Shown here: positions 48,704 through 56,953 of the stretch, one piece after another
Layout of the letters: each line of letters opens with the position of its first letter
How positions within the stretch are numbered: position 1 is the stretch's first letter
From: Alphaproteobacteria bacterium 65-37
GTDB taxonomy: Bacteria; Pseudomonadota; Alphaproteobacteria; Reyranellales; Reyranellaceae
DNA: 64,000 nucleotides
Assembly (NCBI GenBank): GCA_001897995.1
Contig: MKRV01000236.1
Location: forward strand, 62,001 to 126,000
Direction: 5' to 3'
Translations under genes and position numbers: made by a program
Notes under the pieces: model-generated
What the model saw: only the letters and a program-made list of their open reading frames with translations
Told to the model about the DNA's origin: nothing
The model's database searches: none

Positions 48704-50227
48704 TCAGTGCCACCAGGCGGCAATGGCCGCGATCAAGGCGAGGATGGCGACCACCTCGGCAAAAGCCGGGCGCCAGCGGCCGCCCGAGGGCGGCTCGGCG
48801 GCATCCCGCTCGGCCTTGCGCCGTTCGTGCTCGGCCACGAGATGCAGGCTGTCGATCAGGCGCGGCAGGCGGCGCAGGCCGCGCGTCAGATCCTCGGTGG
48901 CGCGGCCGATCGTGGCGCGCGGGCCGAAATGCGTCACCATCCAGTCCTCGATCAGCGGCCGCGCCAGCTCCCAGATGTTGACGTGCGGGTTGAGCTTGGT
49001 GCCCATGCCCTCGGCCATCAGCATGGTCTTCTGCAGCAGCAGGAGCTGCGGCTGCACCGCCATCTCGAACTGTTCGGTGACGCGCAGCATCTGCGCCAGC
49101 AGGCGGGCGATCGAGATCTGATGGCTGGGCTTGCCGAAGATCGGCTCGCCGATCGAGCGGCAGGCCTGGGCGAACGTCTCGAGCGACTGGTCGGGCGGCA
49201 CGTAGCCGGCGCGGAACTGGACCTCGGCCACGGCACGGTAGTCGCGACGCAGGAAGGCGACCAGGAGCTCGGCGAGGTAACCGCGCGTGTCCTCGTCGAC
49301 CCGGCCCATGATGCCGAAATCGACCGGCACGATGCGACCGTCGCGATCGACGAAGGCGTTGCCGCCATGCATGTCGGCATGGAAGAAGCCGTCGCGGAAC
49401 ACCTGGTAGAAGAACGCTTCGGCGCACTTCTTCATGATGAGGTCGGGGTCGTGGCCGGCAGCGACGATGGCGTCGCGATCGCCGATCGGCGTGCCGTCCA
49501 CTCGTTCCTGGGTCATCACACGCTCGGCCGTGCGGTCCCAGTCGATGGCCGGCGCGTGATAATTGGCATCGTCGATGAAGTTCTCGCCGAGCTCCTCGGC
49601 CGCCGCCGCCTCCATGCGCAGGTCCATCTCGACCCGCACCACGTCGGCGAAGGCACGCACCGAGTCGACTGGCTTCAGCCGGCGGAAACGCGGCTGCGTG
49701 CGTTCGACCAGCTCGGCCATCCAGTAGAAAAGATCGAGATCGCGCTCGAAGGCTTTTTCGATGCCGGGCCGCAGCACCTTGACCGCGACGTCGCGGCCGT
49801 CGGTGGTGACGGCGAAATGCACCTGGGCGATCGACGCCGCCGCCACCGGTTTGTCCTCGAAGCTCGAGAAGATCGCATCGATGGGCTGGCCGAGCTCGGC
49901 CTCGATGATACGGCGCGCCTCCTCCCCGGAGAACGCCGGCAAGTGATCCTGCAGGCGCGCGAGATCGGCGGCGACGCCTTCGCTCAGGAGGTCGGCGCGC
50001 GTCGACAGCGCCTGGCCGAGCTTGATGAAGGACGGCCCCATCTCCTGCAGCGCCTCCGCCAGGCGCTCGCCCGGCCGTCGCGAATCGCGCCGGAGCGCGA
50101 AGAGCCGCGCCCAGGCGATCAGTGCCGGCGCGATGCCGAGCGTTTCCAGCGGAAACAGCGCATCGTGGCGGGCGAAACGCAGCGCCATGCGCAGCAGGCG
50201 CCAGCCGTTGCGAAGCGCGCGGAACAT
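48704..50227 (-). CDS. ubiB: UbiB/ABC1 kinase-like protein of ubiquinone synthesis
   Basis: 507 residues. Atypical kinase-like ATPase needed for ubiquinone production. The KxGQ motif is in GPSFIKLGQALSTRADLL (about 48-65). The Ala-rich nucleotide loop is AAASIAQVHFA (about 126-136). The catalytic/metal region is GFFHADMHGGNAFVDRDGRIVPVDFG. Two C-terminal hydrophobic stretches would anchor it to the membrane (AFAEVVAILALIAAIAAWW). Its ATG follows the ubiE stop with no gap, indicating tight coupling. Confidence 0.95.
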   Translation of the reverse strand: MFRALRNGWRLLRMALRFARHDALFPLETLGIAPALIAWARLFALRRDSRRPGERLAEALQEMGPSFIKLGQALSTRADLLSEGVAADLARLQDHLPAFSGEEARRIIEAELGQPIDAIFSSFEDKPVAAASIAQVHFAVTTDGRDVAVKVLRPGIEKAFERDLDLFYWMAELVERTQPRFRRLKPVDSVRAFADVVRVEMDLRMEAAAAEELGENFIDDANYHAPAIDWDRTAERVMTQERVDGTPIGDRDAIVAAGHDPDLIMKKCAEAFFYQVFRDGFFHADMHGGNAFVDRDGRIVPVDFGIMGRVDEDTRGYLAELLVAFLRRDYRAVAEVQFRAGYVPPDQSLETFAQACRSIGEPIFGKPSHQISIARLLAQMLRVTEQFEMAVQPQLLLLQKTMLMAEGMGTKLNPHVNIWELARPLIEDWMVTHFGPRATIGRATEDLTRGLRRLPRLIDSLHLVAEHERRKAERDAAEPPSGGRWRPAFAEVVAILALIAAIAAWWH

Positions 50228-51031
50228 CTAGATGCGCCAGCCCGAATGCAGGGCAACGACGCCGAGCGACATGTCGCGCCAGGCGACATTGGCAAAGCCC
50301 ACTTCCCGCATGCGCGCTGCCAGCTCGCGCTGCGGCGGGAAGCGGCGGATGCTTTCGTGCAGATAGCGGTAGGAGTCGGCGTCGCGAGCGACGATCCGGC
50401 CGAACAACGGCAGTGCCCGCTCCGAATAGGCGTCATAGAGACGGCCGACCGGCGCCGACGTCACCTTGCTGAATTCGAGGCAGTAGAAACGTCCGCCGGG
50501 CTTCAGCACGCGATGGGCCTCGGCCAGCGCCTGGTCGATATGCGTCACGTTGCGCAGGCCGAAGGCGATCGTATAGGCGTCGAAGGAGCGGTCGGGAAAC
50601 GGCAGCTTCTCGGCATCGCCCGTCGTCCAGGTGAGGCCCTGCAGCAGGCCGCGATCGATGGCTCGGTCGCGACCGACCTCCAGCATGGCGGGATTGATGT
50701 CGCAAACGGTCACGTCGGGCCGATCGCCCTGCCGGCGGACCATGCGGAAGGCGATATCGCCGGTGCCGCCCGCCACGTCGAGGATATGCTCCCCCGGACG
50801 CGGGCGAACGACGTCGACCATGGCATTCTTCCAGAGCCGGTGCACACCACCCGACATCAGGTCGTTCATCAGGTCGTAACGCGGCGCCACGCTTTCGAAG
50901 ACGCGCGCCACCAGGCCGGCCTTTTCGCCGGCTGGAACCTCGCGGAAGCCGAAGGAAGCGCTGTCCTCGACGCCGCCGGCCAGGCTCTGGCTCTCGGGGC
51001 GGGCTGCGCTAGGATCGGTGGCATCTGTCAT
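50228..51031 (-). CDS. ubiE: Ubiquinone/menaquinone methyltransferase UbiE
   Basis: 267 residues. SAM-dependent C-methylation of the benzoquinol ring. Family signatures are FESVAPRYDLMNDLMSGG (about 46-63), the SAM-binding LDVAGGTGDIAFRM, GDAEKLPFPDRSFDAYTIAFGLRN and RVLKPGGRFYCLEFSK. The start at 51031 leaves about 30 extra N-terminal residues before the core. It begins only 24 bp from the divergent halohydrin dehalogenase-like gene, and its stop abuts ubiB. Confidence 0.95.
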   Translation of the reverse strand: MTDATDPSAARPESQSLAGGVEDSASFGFREVPAGEKAGLVARVFESVAPRYDLMNDLMSGGVHRLWKNAMVDVVRPRPGEHILDVAGGTGDIAFRMVRRQGDRPDVTVCDINPAMLEVGRDRAIDRGLLQGLTWTTGDAEKLPFPDRSFDAYTIAFGLRNVTHIDQALAEAHRVLKPGGRFYCLEFSKVTSAPVGRLYDAYSERALPLFGRIVARDADSYRYLHESIRRFPPQRELAARMREVGFANVAWRDMSLGVVALHSGWRI

Positions 51032-51055
51032 GGGCCGCAACCTAGAGGAATCGCC

Positions 51056-51790
51056 ATGCTGCTGAAAGACCGGGTGGTCTTGATCACCAACGTCGAGAAA
51101 TTCGCAGGCCATGGCACCACACGCGTGGCCTTGGCCCAGGGCGCCACCGTCCTTGCCCACGATCCGTCATTCGAAGCACCGAGTGCGCGCCACAAGTACG
51201 AAGCCGCGTTCCCGGGCGCCCATGCCCTGTCGGCCGTCGAGCCCGCGACCCTGATCGAGCTCGCCCTGAAGCGGCACGGTCATATTGACGCGCTGGTCAA
51301 CAACGACGCCTATCCCGCTTTGCGTGCGCCGCTCGGCGAGACCCGGCTGGAGGATTACCGTGCGGCGCTCGAGGCCATGGCGGTGGTGCCGTTCCGGCTG
51401 ACGCAGCTCGTGGCGCCGTCGATGCGCAAGCGCAAGTCGGGACGCATCGTCTTCGTCTCGTCGGCAGCCCCATTGCGCGGCATCGCCAATTACGCGCCCT
51501 ACGTGTCGGCGCGCGCCGCCGCCAACGGACTCGTTTCCTCGCTGGCGAAGGAACTCGGCCGCGACGGAATCACGGTCAACGCCGTCGGCTCGAACTATGT
51601 CGAGAATCCGGATTATTTTCCGCCGGCCCTGCTCGCCAACCACGAAGCCATGGCGAAGATGACGGCGCAGATCCCGCTCGGAAGGCTTGGAAAATCGGAC
51701 GAACTCGGCGCGACCGTTTGCTTCCTCTGCTCCGACGCCGCAGGCTTCATCACCGGTCACGTTCTTCCGCATGCCGGAGGGTGGGCGTGA
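51056..51790 (+). CDS. Halohydrin dehalogenase-like SDR protein
   Basis: 244 residues with the SDR fold but neither the TGxxxGxG cofactor loop nor YxxxK. It carries both motifs described for halohydrin dehalogenases: T-X4-F-X-G as TNVEKFAG (Thr11, Phe16, Gly18) and S-X12-Y-X3-R (Ser136, Tyr149, Arg153). Other stretches also match HheC as I know it: LAHDPSF, LEDYRAALEAM, MRKRKSGRIVFVSSA and the halide-site area GSNYVENPDYFPP. Such enzymes expel halide from vicinal haloalcohols to give epoxides, and open epoxides with azide, cyanide or nitrite; they need no NAD(P). GAGGA precedes the ATG. Confidence 0.85.
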   Translation: MLLKDRVVLITNVEKFAGHGTTRVALAQGATVLAHDPSFEAPSARHKYEAAFPGAHALSAVEPATLIELALKRHGHIDALVNNDAYPALRAPLGETRLEDYRAALEAMAVVPFRLTQLVAPSMRKRKSGRIVFVSSAAPLRGIANYAPYVSARAAANGLVSSLAKELGRDGITVNAVGSNYVENPDYFPPALLANHEAMAKMTAQIPLGRLGKSDELGATVCFLCSDAAGFITGHVLPHAGGWA

Positions 51791-51901: not shown

Positions 51902-51938
51902 CGGTCGTCCTTTGCTGGGTTCGGTCCGAGGACGGCGA

Positions 51939-52877
51939 ATGGGAAGACAGATTGTCCACCGCCTGCTGATCTCGTTTCCCGCGTTGCTCGGGGTTCTTTT
52001 CCTGTGCTTCTGTCTGTTGCAGGTGGTGCCCGCCGATCCGGCGATGATCATCGCCGGACCTGAGGCCAAGGCCGAGACGATCGCCGCCATCCGCCAGGAA
52101 CTCGGGCTCGACCGGCCGATCCCCGTCCAGTTCGCCGAGTATATCGGCCGCGTGCTGCGCGGCGATCTCGGCCGCTCGATCATCTCCAACAAGATGGTGA
52201 GCGAAGAGCTGGCACTCACCATCGGTCCGACCGTCGAGCTGATGCTGGGCGGCATGCTGATCGCCATTCCGATCGGCCTCACGCTCGGCACCCTGGCCGC
52301 GGTGCGGCGCGGCACGATCGTCGACCGCATCATCATGGCCTTCTCGGTGGCCGGCGTTTCCATGCCGGTGTTCTTCATCGGCCTGATCCTGATCCAGTAC
52401 ATGGGCTTCAAGTGGGGCCTCTTTCCTTTCACCGGCCGCACCGGGCCGATCTGGGACGGCGGCCTGCCGAGCCTCGTTCTGCCGGCCCTGACCTTAGGCA
52501 GCGTCCTGATCGGGCCGATCGCACGGCTGACGCGAACGGCGGTGCTGGAGGTGCTGGGGGCCGACTTCGTGCGCACCGCCCGCGCCAAGGGCCTGCGCGA
52601 GACCGCGGTGATCGTGCACCATGCGCTGCGCAATGCGCTGATCCCGGTCGTCACCCTGATCGGCCTGCAGGCGGCCTTCCTGCTGGGCGGTGCGGTGGTG
52701 ACGGAGACCATGTTTTCCTGGCCGGGTGTCGGCCGCCTCGCCGTCGGCGCGATCGTCTCCAGCGATTTCCCGACTGCGCAGGGCGCGATCATGATCCTCG
52801 CCATCGCGTTCCTGTCGATCAACCTGCTGGTCGACATCCTCTACGTCTATCTCGATCCCAGGGTTCAGCGGACATGA
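51939..52877 (+). CDS. dppB: Peptide ABC transporter permease (DppB type)
   Basis: 312 residues, about six membrane helices. First permease of a dipeptide/oligopeptide importer. The N-terminal RLLISFPALLGVLFLCFCLLQVVPADPA and the EAA-loop region FVRTARAKGLRETAVIVHHALRNALIPVV (about 210-238) are typical. GAGGA precedes the ATG at 51939; a TTG nine codons upstream is less likely. It opens an operon of six genes (B, C, two A, D, F). Confidence 0.92.
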   Translation: MGRQIVHRLLISFPALLGVLFLCFCLLQVVPADPAMIIAGPEAKAETIAAIRQELGLDRPIPVQFAEYIGRVLRGDLGRSIISNKMVSEELALTIGPTVELMLGGMLIAIPIGLTLGTLAAVRRGTIVDRIIMAFSVAGVSMPVFFIGLILIQYMGFKWGLFPFTGRTGPIWDGGLPSLVLPALTLGSVLIGPIARLTRTAVLEVLGADFVRTARAKGLRETAVIVHHALRNALIPVVTLIGLQAAFLLGGAVVTETMFSWPGVGRLAVGAIVSSDFPTAQGAIMILAIAFLSINLLVDILYVYLDPRVQRT

Positions 52878-52890
52878 GAGGTCAACGGCC

Positions 52891-53778
52891 ATGAGCGTCG
52901 AGACCGTCAACGTCGCGGCCGCCGCGTCCGAGGAGACGGGCCTGCTCTCGCGTGCCGGCGTGCTGCGCCGCCTGGCACGCGACAAGATCGCGGCGGCGGC
53001 CGCTCTCGCCCTCACGCTGATCGTCCTCTCGGCCGTCTTCGCCCCCCTCATCGCCCCCTACGATCCCTATCTCACCGACCTCACCAAGGTGATGCAGCCG
53101 CCCAGCGCCGAGCACTGGTTCGGTACCGACAATACCGGCCGCGACATCTTCAGCCGCATCCTCTACGGCACGCGCAACACGCTGATGCTGGGGCTGGTCG
53201 GCGTGGTGATCGGCGGCTTCCTGGGCGGCGTGCTCGGCATCCTTGCCGCCTACTACCGACGCGCCGACGGCTGGATCATGCGGCTGGTCGACGTGATGCT
53301 GGCCTTCCCGGCCATCCTGATCGGCCTGGCGGTGGCAGCGATCTTCGGCGCCGGCCTTACCGCCGTGGTGATCGCCCTCGTCGTGGCGACCGTGCCTGAC
53401 GTGGCGCGGGTCGCCCGCGGCTCGGCGGTCGGCGTCATGGGTCAGGAGTTCATGGAGGCCGGCCGCGCCGTCGGCGTCTCCGACGGCACGCTGATCTGGC
53501 GCTACCTGACGCTGAACTGCATCTCGACCATCTTCGTTTTCCTCACCCTGCGCTTCGGCCAGATCATCCTGATCGGTTCGGCGCTGGGCTTCCTCGGCAT
53601 GGGCGCGCAGCCGCCGACCGCCGAGCTCGGCATGATGGCGGCCCAGGGCCGCGACTTCCTCTTCATGGCGCCGCACATCGCGACGATCCCGAGCTTCGCG
53701 ATCTTCGTGATCGTGCTGGCGGCCAATCTTCTGGGCGACGCAACGCGCGACGTCCTCGATCCGAGGCTGCAACAATGA
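52891..53778 (+). CDS. dppC: Peptide ABC transporter permease (DppC type)
   Basis: 295 residues. Second permease: an N-terminal cytoplasmic stretch and DKIAAAAALALTLIVLSAVFAPLIAPYDPY helix region, then HWFGTDNTGRDIFSRILYGTRNTLMLG, the conserved DppC/OppC periplasmic segment, and the EAA loop EFMEAGRAVGVSDGTLIWRYL. Starts 13 bp after dppB. Its stop overlaps the ATG of the first binding-protein gene by 4 bp. Confidence 0.93.
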   Translation: MSVETVNVAAAASEETGLLSRAGVLRRLARDKIAAAAALALTLIVLSAVFAPLIAPYDPYLTDLTKVMQPPSAEHWFGTDNTGRDIFSRILYGTRNTLMLGLVGVVIGGFLGGVLGILAAYYRRADGWIMRLVDVMLAFPAILIGLAVAAIFGAGLTAVVIALVVATVPDVARVARGSAVGVMGQEFMEAGRAVGVSDGTLIWRYLTLNCISTIFVFLTLRFGQIILIGSALGFLGMGAQPPTAELGMMAAQGRDFLFMAPHIATIPSFAIFVIVLAANLLGDATRDVLDPRLQQ

Positions 53779-55349
53779 TCAGAGCCGTTCTGAGTGCAGC
53801 GTTTGCGTTGAGTATTGCCGGGAGTATCGCCCTACCGGCCGCCGGCCAGACCCTGAACATGATGAAGTCGATCGACGCGCCGCATTACGATGCGCAGCGC
53901 ACGACCTGGGGCCCGACGTCCGACATCGTCAACATGTTCCAGGACACGCTGGTCGCGCTCGACTGGGACGGCAAGACGCCCATCCCCTACCTCGCCAAGT
54001 CGTGGACCGTCAGCCCCGACGGCAAGCTCTACACCTTCAAGCTGCGCGACGACGTCACCTTCTGCAGCGGCAAGAAGTTCACGGCGGAGGACGTCGTCTA
54101 CTCCTTCAAGAGACTGAAGGATCCGGCCCTCAAGGGACCGTTCGCCTGGCGTGCCGGTACCATCAAGGAGCTTCGTGCACCCGACCCCTATACCGTCGAG
54201 TACGAGCTCGAGGAGCCGTTCTCCGAGCTGCTACTGCAGCTCACCATGTTCACCAACGTGATCCACAACAAGGAAAGCGTCGAGGCGCTGGGCAAGGACT
54301 ACGGCGTCAAGGGTGCCGATGGTACCGGCCCCTGGTGCTTCGAGTCGTGGACGCCGCGCACGCAGATCGTGCTCAGGCGTCACGACGCCTACAAGTGGGG
54401 CCCCTCGATGTACCAGAACAAGGGGCCGGTGAAGTTCGAGAAGCTCAGCATCAGGATCGTGCCCGAGGATTCCAGCCGGGTGGCGGCCATGATGGCGGGA
54501 CAGTTCGACTACACCAACCAGTTCCCCAGCCAGTTCATCGCGCAGGCCAAGGCCGCGCCGATGCTGCAGGTGCAGGAGGCCCGGCCCAACTTCCAGCTCC
54601 TCTATTTCGGCTTCAAGACGTCGCGGCCGATGGTCGAGGACAAGCGCGTGCGCGAAGCGATGAGCATCGCGATCAACCGCGCCGAGATCGCCAAGGGCAT
54701 CCTGCTGGGAAATGCCGATCCCGCCTTCACCATCGTCGACAAGGACGCGCAGGATTTCGACCCTAAGTCCGGAGAGATCGTGAAGGAGGACGTCGAGCGG
54801 GCGAAGAAGCTGCTCGACGAGGCCGGCTGGAAGGTCGGCAGCGACGGCATCCGCGAGAAGGACGGCATCAAGCTGCAGCCCAAGGTCTACTTCACCCAGG
54901 CCGGCAACACGCCGCGCATCGCCGAAGCCATCCAGGGCTATCTGCGCCGTATCGGCGTGCAATGGCAGCTCCAGCCGTGGGACTCGACCATTGCCGCGGC
55001 GAAGATGGCCGAGCAGGACTACGAGATCTGGTCCGTCACCGTGCCCTACCTGTCGGCCGGTGACTTGATGAACATCTACTTCGACTCCCGGAACATCCCG
55101 ACGCCCAACAGGATGAACTGGAAGAATGCCGAGACCGACGAGGTGCTGCGGCGCGGCCGCTCGGCGCTCAACGACGCCGACCGGGCCAAGGCTTACGAGC
55201 TGGTGCAGCAGCAGGTGACGCGCGAGCACCTCTGGATACCGGTGCTGAACATCAGCATGCACATGGTGACCAGCAAGCGGCTCAAGGGCGCCCGGCCGCA
55301 CATGATCTACCAGAACACGTTCTACAAGGGGTTGGACCTCAGTCTGTAG
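53775..55349 (+). CDS. Peptide ABC transporter substrate-binding protein, copy 1
   Basis: 524 residues, family 5 extracellular solute-binding protein. The signal peptide is at about 1-24 (AFALSIAGSIALPAAGQ). The lobe-I segment [26 protein letters not shown] and [12 protein letters not shown] are typical. It is about three quarters identical by eye to the next protein, so the pair is a tandem duplication. Differences cluster where peptide ligands bind in this family (around residues 240-265 and 385-405), suggesting different specificities. It overlaps dppC by 4 bp. Confidence 0.93.
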   Translation: MIRAVLSAAFALSIAGSIALPAAGQTLNMMKSIDAPHYDAQRTTWGPTSDIVNMFQDTLVALDWDGKTPIPYLAKSWTVSPDGKLYTFKLRDDVTFCSGKKFTAEDVVYSFKRLKDPALKGPFAWRAGTIKELRAPDPYTVEYELEEPFSELLLQLTMFTNVIHNKESVEALGKDYGVKGADGTGPWCFESWTPRTQIVLRRHDAYKWGPSMYQNKGPVKFEKLSIRIVPEDSSRVAAMMAGQFDYTNQFPSQFIAQAKAAPMLQVQEARPNFQLLYFGFKTSRPMVEDKRVREAMSIAINRAEIAKGILLGNADPAFTIVDKDAQDFDPKSGEIVKEDVERAKKLLDEAGWKVGSDGIREKDGIKLQPKVYFTQAGNTPRIAEAIQGYLRRIGVQWQLQPWDSTIAAAKMAEQDYEIWSVTVPYLSAGDLMNIYFDSRNIPTPNRMNWKNAETDEVLRRGRSALNDADRAKAYELVQQQVTREHLWIPVLNISMHMVTSKRLKGARPHMIYQNTFYKGLDLSL

Positions 55350-55381
55350 GAACAAGAACTTAGCGAGGCGAGGAAACGACG

Positions 55382-56952
55382 ATGCGTACCATTGTGACAG
55401 GCGTGGCAGCGTTTCTCGGGATGGCCGGCTTCACGGTCGCGGCAGAAGCGCAGACGCTCAAGATGATGAAAGCGCTCGACGCGCCGCATTACGACGGGCA
55501 GCGCACGACCTGGTCGCCGACCTCCGACATCGTCAACATGTTCCAGGATACGCTGGTCGCGATGGACTGGGACGGCAAGACGCCCATTCCCTACCTCGCC
55601 AAGTCGTGGACCGTCAGCCCCGACGGCAAGCTCTACACCTTCAAGCTGCGTGACGACGTCACCTTCTGCAGCGGCAAGAAATTCACCGCCGAAGACGTGA
55701 TCTATTCCTTCAAGCGCCTGACCAGCCCCGAACTCAAGGCCCCGCTCGCCTGGCGCGCCGGCAACATCAAGGAGCTGCGTGCACCCGATCCCTACACCGT
55801 CGAGTACGAGTTGAACGAGCCGTTCGCCGACCTGCTGCTGCAGCTCACCATGTTCACAACGGCGATCCACAACAAGGAAAGCGTCGAGGCGCTGGGCAAG
55901 GATTACGGCACCAAGGCGATCGACGGCACCGGCCCCTGGTGCTTCGAGTCCTGGACGCCGCGCACCGAGATCGTGCTGAAGCGCCACGATGCCTATAAGT
56001 GGGGCCCCTCGATGTATCAGAACAAAGGGCCGGTGAAGTTCGAGAAGCTCAGCATCAAAATCGTGCCCGAGGATTCCAGCCGAGTGGCGGCGATGATGGG
56101 CGGACAGTTCGACGTGACGCATCAGATCCCGCTGCAGTTCATCCAGCAGGTCAAGGCTTCGCCCAATCTCAACGTCCAGGAGGCGACGCCCAACTTCCAG
56201 CTGATGTACTACGGCTACAAGACGACGCGGCCGATGGTGGCGGACAAGCGCGTGCGCGAGGCGATGAACATCGCCATCAATCGCGCCGATATCACCAAGG
56301 GCATCATGCTGGGCAACGCCACGCCGGCCTATACTTTCATCGATCCCAAGGCGCTCGACTTCGCCGAAGCGACCAAGGGCGTCATCAAGGAAGACGTCGA
56401 ACGGGCGAAGAAGCTGCTCGACGAAGCGGGTTGGAAAGTCGGCAGCGACGGCATCCGCGAAAAGGACGGCGTCAAGCTGGCGCCGCGCGTCCTGTTCACC
56501 CAGGTCGCCTACTTCCCGCGCGTTTCGGAGGCGATCCAGGGCTACATGCGCAAGATCGGCATCGACTGGAAGATCGTCGGCTACGACTCGACTATCGCAC
56601 CGGCTGAGATGGCCAAGCAGGATTACGAACTCTGGACGGTGACCTTTCCCTACATCTCGTCCGGCGACCTGCTGAATTTCTACTTCGATTCGAAGAACAT
56701 GCCGGCTCCCAACCGCATGAACTGGAACGACCCCGAGACCGACGAGTATCTCAAGATGGGCCGCGCTTCGCTCACCGACGCCGACCGCGCCAAATACTAC
56801 GCGCTCGCCCAGCAGCGGGTGACCGAAGAACATCTCTGGATGCCGGTGATGAACATCGCGATGTACACCACCAGCACCAAGAAGCTGAAGGGCGTGCGGC
56901 CGCACATGCTCTACCAGAACACCTTCTACAAGGGCCTGGACTACTCCTTCTG

Positions 56953-56953
<1 letters not shown>
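55382..56953 (+). CDS. Peptide ABC transporter substrate-binding protein, copy 2
   Basis: 523 residues. Paralogue of the preceding gene with its own signal peptide ([18 protein letters not shown], cut near residue 24). The same family 5 binding-protein motifs are present and the two align without large gaps. Where copy 1 has QFDYTNQFPSQF this copy has [12 protein letters not shown]. It lies 32 bp after copy 1 with a GAGGCGAGG-type ribosome site, and its TGA shares one base with the dppD ATG. Both copies presumably feed the single permease pair. Confidence 0.93.

Follow-up and report, generated by a model that had tools for sequence, protein, structure and literature searches.

The stretch of DNA analysed here (the window) comprises 64,000 nucleotides of Alphaproteobacteria bacterium 65-37, family Reyranellaceae (assembly GCA_001897995.1, contig MKRV01000236.1, positions 62,001 to 126,000). 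It contains an intact open reading frame (ORF) coding for a protein whose sequence gives good support for membership in the halohydrin dehalogenase (HHDH) family. The gene lies between ubiE, from which it diverges, and the genes of a peptide-type ABC importer (Table 1). A preliminary description, made from the sequence alone, had proposed a candidate HHDH at this place, with both signatures of these enzymes at exact spacing. The coordinates of the ORF were correct, and both motifs were found: residues 11-18 (TNVEKFAG) match the pattern T-X4-F/Y-X-G, and Ser136, Tyr149 and Arg153 have exactly the spacing S-X12-Y-X3-R. The elements typical of classical oxidoreductases of the short-chain dehydrogenase/reductase (SDR) type, TGxxxGxG, NNAG and YxxxK, were absent from the 244-residue protein, as had been claimed for the cofactor and YxxxK motifs.

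Table 1. Features of the HHDH locus (positions in the window)
Feature	Position	Strand	Remarks
HHDH-family protein, 244 aa + stop	51056..51790	+	Intact ORF; assignment from motifs, PDB matches, alignment and tree
Motif 1, T11-N-V-E-K-F16-A-G18	51086..51109	+	Predicted nucleophile (halide) pocket replacing the SDR glycine-rich loop; motif as defined in section 5 of PMC4989007
Motif 2, S136-X12-Y149-X3-R153	51461..51514	+	Predicted catalytic triad, Arg replacing the SDR Lys
N180 to P189 segment	51593..51622	+	Aligned with the HheC segment C-terminal to P175
ubiE methyltransferase gene	50228..51031	-	Divergent from the dehalogenase gene; probable start codon at 51031
ubiB (ABC1 kinase-like)	48704..50227	-	Neighbour
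First permease gene of the downstream peptide-type ABC importer	51912..52877	+	Near the dehalogenase gene in 28/52 loci
Leader AACCTAGAGGAA with Shine-Dalgarno-like AGAGGAA	51039..51050	+	Just 5' of the ATG
TAGGAT	51010..51015	+	Could be the -10 element of the dehalogenase promoter; lies within the 5' end of ubiE

Of 100,000 shuffled versions of the protein sequence, 5,099 contained motif 1, 2,167 contained motif 2, and 112 had both, irrespective of position. Among the 189 open frames of at least 150 amino acids in the window, the frame holding the dehalogenase gene was the only one with both motifs 100-150 residues apart. None of seven other SDR loci fetched from the same genome, which has roughly 95 further SDR matches outside this comparison, carried a full motif 1 or 2 at the aligned positions. 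In a 28-row alignment Gly18, Ser136, Tyr149, Arg153, Asn180 and Tyr187 were invariant, and Thr11, Phe16 and Pro189 nearly so; the other residues of the Asn180-Pro189 segment presumably line the pocket. In a wider set of 57 loci (the window gene, its close kin and the best matches in the class) the Ser-Tyr-Arg triad was kept in all, and the Thr, Phe and Gly of motif 1 in 52. The five departures were Ser for Thr (L039 and L055) and Trp for Phe (L042, L044 and L045, from position 1501 onwards, all of one genus of the class sample). A search with the published motif would miss such loci.

In a sequence search of the PDB the best match was 6a41 (498.9 bits), followed by HheC (160-145 bits), HheA (143-139), HheD8 and HheD2 (107), HheB (97-96) and FabG (93); the chains of HheD2 (7b73), HheD8 (8xxb), HheB (4zd6), an AbHheG mutant (8hqp) and 7wkq ranged from 107 down to 85 bits. 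The preliminary description had proposed a profile comparison and a structure prediction. With a profile built from 28 relatives, all FabG chains scored below 6a41, HheC, HheA, HheD2, HheD8 and a single HheB chain. In the tree the window protein, 6a41, HheC and HheA were split with 100/100 support from the seven SDRs of the same genome, although the bootstrap was not fully settled and two of the SDR outgroup rows had long branches. HheC and HheA fell inside an alphaproteobacterial clade, a nesting that may partly reflect sampling, for the relatives were gathered with the window protein as query. The window protein stood apart from both HheA and HheC in this tree, which left out subtypes B, D, E, F and G; by score, both in the PDB search and with the profile, it was closer to A/C than to B and D. 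To judge from its sequence, its clade may merit a subtype letter of its own. The genome has one HHDH-like copy, the next match being an SDR (93.6 bits, compared with 530.8). Section 5 of PMC4989007 reports 37 new genes identified by the two motifs, with activity confirmed for 19 selected ones.

The AlphaFold model of the monomer had a mean pLDDT of 92.6 and matched 6a41 with a TM score of 0.96. The absence of an NAD(P) sequence motif, the model and the fold match are compatible with a possible anion pocket in place of the NAD(P) site, as far as sequence and overall fold can tell; the fold comparison does not have the power to separate HHDHs from SDRs here. Several observations could be read to mean that the protein is an ordinary NAD(P)-dependent SDR oxidoreductase with drifted motifs. 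Its fold Z is near that of FabG, the SDR families PF13561 and PF00106 of Pfam match strongly, and the named relatives (the best 120 of 4621) are labelled 'SDR family oxidoreductase', 'NAD(P)-dependent dehydrogenase' or 'FabG'. We consider this very improbable. The glycine-rich loop, NNAG and YxxxK are all missing, most HHDH chains score above the SDR chains, the tree separates the two groups, and among the 25 listed of 209 matched NCBIfam models none reached its cut-off (none of these was HHDH-specific). The assignment to the HHDHs corrects the database names of the relatives.

The preliminary description had called these enzymes rare. In the Reyranellaceae the gene appears instead to be strongly conserved, being present in 66 of 75 genomes (three of them with a partial match only), in 48 of the 51 good ones and in all five genera. 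In the order, which adds one genome to the family set, it was detected in 67 of 76. A class sample gave 41 of 385 genomes and 24 of 276 genera (E <= 1e-38). In the phylum 2 of 398 genomes, both of the genus of the window, were found at E <= 1e-60, a threshold too strict to inform on more distant relatives. Named carriers include Reyranella massiliensis 521, R. soli NBRC 108950, R. aquatilis KCTC 52223, Enhydrobacter aerosaccus ATCC 27094, Vineibacter terrae and Sneathiella species; the window itself comes from Reyranella or a close relative of it. The named loci discussed below are the best 80 of 140, consisting of 52 of close kin (L065-L116) and 28 more distant ones (L117-L144).

In all 52 close-kin loci ubiE is divergent from the dehalogenase gene, usually with ubiB, TauE-family, coaBC and dut genes behind it. 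The median pairwise omega was 0.085 for the dehalogenase (52 loci), 0.172 for ubiE (49 loci) and 0.151 for ubiB (44 loci); these are Nei-Gojobori medians at high synonymous divergence. Amino-acid-changing distances of the dehalogenase correlated with those of ubiE (Pearson 0.77) and ubiB (0.72), the value for ubiE and ubiB themselves being 0.81. The low omega and the parallel distances give the picture of a vertically inherited gene under steady constraint. To judge from their sequences, the Reyranellaceae have passed the gene on vertically, on the chromosome, and purifying selection on it is strong.

HHDHs are also known from pollutant degraders: according to section 5 of PMC4989007, the source strains of HheA, HheB and HheC had been enriched on epihalohydrins or haloalcohols, which are toxic. 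A search of 72,556 plasmid records (E <= 1e-30) gave one match, on a Microbacterium plasmid, where the order is epoxide hydrolase, haloalcohol dehalogenase, glycerol kinase, with transposase genes around. That copy represents the catabolic type, from which the Reyranella gene seems to differ. The window gene could still be thought of as a xenobiotic-degradation gene acquired by recent horizontal transfer, like the plasmid-borne HheA type, and the strain histories and the plasmid copy lend this some colour. Against it stand the presence of the gene in nearly all good genomes of the family, its fixed position beside ubiE, the distances that follow ubiE and ubiB, and the single match among so many plasmids. 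A recent transfer is therefore highly unlikely. An endogenous, vertically inherited role fits better than pollutant breakdown, because of the family-wide presence, the fixed ubiE position, the constraint, the near-absence from plasmids and the other lineage-fixed places of the gene described below.

The start codons assigned to ubiE and the dehalogenase gene are 24 bp apart; the divergent orientation and the importer downstream had both been noted correctly in the preliminary description. TAGGAT was present upstream of the gene in 38 of the 52 close-kin loci, the leader pattern A[AG][CA][CT]TAGAGGAA in 47, and CTGAAAG within the first codons of the dehalogenase in 51. The closeness of the starts and the conservation of TAGGAT, leader and first codons suggest that the promoters of ubiE and the dehalogenase gene are divergent and overlap (window 51010-51066).

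A general link to ubiquinone synthesis was rejected: ubiE was adjacent in none of the 28 distant named loci, some of which are on short contigs, and in none of 20 class stretches (L147-L166). Since adjacency to ubiE is confined to close kin, the nearness of the ubiquinone genes most likely reflects local placement and not a shared pathway. The peptide importer was likewise rejected as an obligate partner, its first permease gene being near the dehalogenase in 28 of the 52 close-kin loci; in 50 of the 52 the sequence extends for at least 1500 bp downstream. Within the importer operon of the window, two similar ORFs (524 and 523 amino acids) follow one another at positions 53775-56953, the first a family-5 solute-binding protein; to judge from the distance to the ATPase gene, relatives seem to differ in the number of such ORFs.

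When the open frames around the 28 distant loci were clustered, no family besides the gene and its reverse frames reached more than seven loci. Among the neighbours in other lineages (20 of 46 listed were scanned, three of them without a Pfam match), three recurred within lineage groups, and a general functional partner was rejected. purK lay tail-to-tail with the gene in six loci, five of the Sneathiella type and L157 of another family. An alpha-amylase gene was head-to-head with it in six loci (five distinct contigs), including L158 of another family. In sister genera of Reyranella a phosphofructokinase gene followed closely on the same strand, in an operon-like manner, in five loci, two of them on the same contig; this arrangement lies near positions 10000-12000 in L118, L120 and L122, and near 9000-11000 in L119. 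The scan of neighbours also found recJ, amidase and transporter genes, and no obvious epoxide or halide gene. Positions shared between families give a second indication of vertical inheritance.

The preliminary description had seen no haloalcohol pathway in the context of the gene. This held for the eight neighbour proteins scanned in the window, but elsewhere in the genome, on a different contig and unlinked, there is an EHN-type epoxide hydrolase. A member of this family was found in 40 of 41 genomes of the genus (all 27 good ones), compared with 1 of 14 control genomes. Co-occurrence is the only tie between the dehalogenase and the EHN protein; conceivably the core genome includes a route that handles epoxides. 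The tryptophan-halogenase family was found in none of the 41 genus genomes (1 of 14 controls), other halogenase and haloperoxidase families being outside this search.

By analogy with characterized HHDHs we infer that the window protein catalyses dehalogenation or epoxide closure. Tyr149, its pKa lowered by Arg153, would take a proton from a vicinal hydroxyl held by Ser136, and the alkoxide would displace the adjoining halide or another anionic leaving group to close the epoxide. The released anion would sit in the pocket made by the Thr11-Phe16-Gly18 loop and Asn180-Tyr187, where SDRs bind NAD(P); in the reverse direction small anions would open epoxides. Because the gene is vertically kept, chromosomal and under strong purifying selection, the enzyme most likely acts on an epoxide or halohydrin that is endogenous or common in the environment. 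The epoxide might, speculatively, be handed to the unlinked EHN epoxide hydrolase.

The same fold and triad could serve a native reaction with another leaving group or a halide-free epoxide, dehalogenation being a side activity. A strongly constrained core gene, scanned neighbours among which no haloalcohol operon was seen and the lack of tryptophan-halogenase genes in 41 genomes of the genus would all suit such a role, and HHDHs accept azide, cyanide and nitrite, as reported in PMC4989007. Against it, the motif 1 and Asn180-Tyr187 residues are almost as conserved as the triad. We regard this alternative as a serious one, if somewhat short of probable. Taken as a whole, the motifs, relatives, fold, phylogeny and conservation, with the reaction drawn from knowledge of the family, make it very probable that the protein is a cofactor-independent HHDH on the A/C side, kept vertically in the Reyranellaceae and acting on an endogenous or common environmental substrate.

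The core-gene distribution is the part that goes beyond a reading of the sequence, and it points to an undiscovered natural role. HHDHs are used for chiral epoxide chemistry, yet according to PMC11976700 the natural substrates of HheC are probably others than the epoxides and haloalcohols tested. In the openly licensed literature no paper joining Reyranella and halohydrin was found, and among the papers listed none bore on a natural role of HHDHs or on a core-gene HHDH. A constrained, family-wide copy in named strains makes the question of that role testable by knockout. We tentatively suggest, well aware that it may prove wrong, that the A/C-type HHDHs of pollutant degraders branched off from an ancient alphaproteobacterial family, passed on vertically, whose enzyme has a housekeeping function and acts on an endogenous epoxide or a precursor of one. 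If so, the Reyranellaceae, with a core gene more constrained than ubiE, would offer the first handle on the natural function of HHDHs.

Comparison with known proteins places the window protein as follows. With FabG and other classical SDRs it has the Rossmann fold and the Ser and Tyr positions in common, but these bind NAD(P) via TGxxxGxG and use YxxxK, both absent here. HheD2 (7b73), HheD8 (8xxb), HheB (4zd6), the AbHheG mutant (8hqp) and 7wkq (halohydrin dehalogenase) belong to the same enzyme family by the names of their entries or papers, at lower scores. Two groups of class relatives depart from the standard pattern. Three small genomes of one family have two HHDH-like genes in tandem (L149:4857-6337, L150:4777-6249, L151:4647-6140); one gene carries the Ser-Tyr-Arg motif, and in the other the motif 1 aromatic residue is missing and Gln replaces the catalytic Arg (3/3), so by sequence the latter could encode a non-catalytic partner subunit. 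In a subclade on the HheA side (L152:4702-5448, L153:5086-5826, L154:4914-5693) motif 1, Ser and Arg are kept and the catalytic Tyr is replaced by Pro or Ala (3/3), so that the standard mechanism should not apply.

HheA (4z9f, 1zmo, 8oxf) shares both motifs with the window protein and, like it, has no C-terminal extension; identity to 4z9f is 35%, and HheA groups with a different alphaproteobacterial subclade (99/95). HheC (1pwx, 3zn2, 5kwe) of Agrobacterium radiobacter AD1 also has both motifs and the Ser-Tyr-Arg triad, and its N-Y ... Y-P segment aligns with that of the window protein. The likeness to HheC noted in the preliminary description was borne out by 39% identity over 239 residues to an engineered HheC chain (3zn2). 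HheC differs in a C-terminal extension with Trp249, and its gene is in an operon with an epoxide hydrolase gene, unlike the window gene (strain and operon according to PMC11976700). The closest known protein is 6a41, released in 2019 as 'dehalogenase' / 'Dehalogenation enzyme', for which no paper was found, by title, in the openly licensed literature. A 2019 paper reportedly describes an HHDH 'from an Alphaproteobacterium' and may concern a related protein. The 6a41 chain is 91% identical to the window protein over all 244 residues and shares its motifs; it is 98% identical to a protein of another genome of the same genus, and evidently comes from a different species of that genus. The window protein is a further member of a known enzyme family, and the enzyme itself is not new, a near-identical structure having been deposited.
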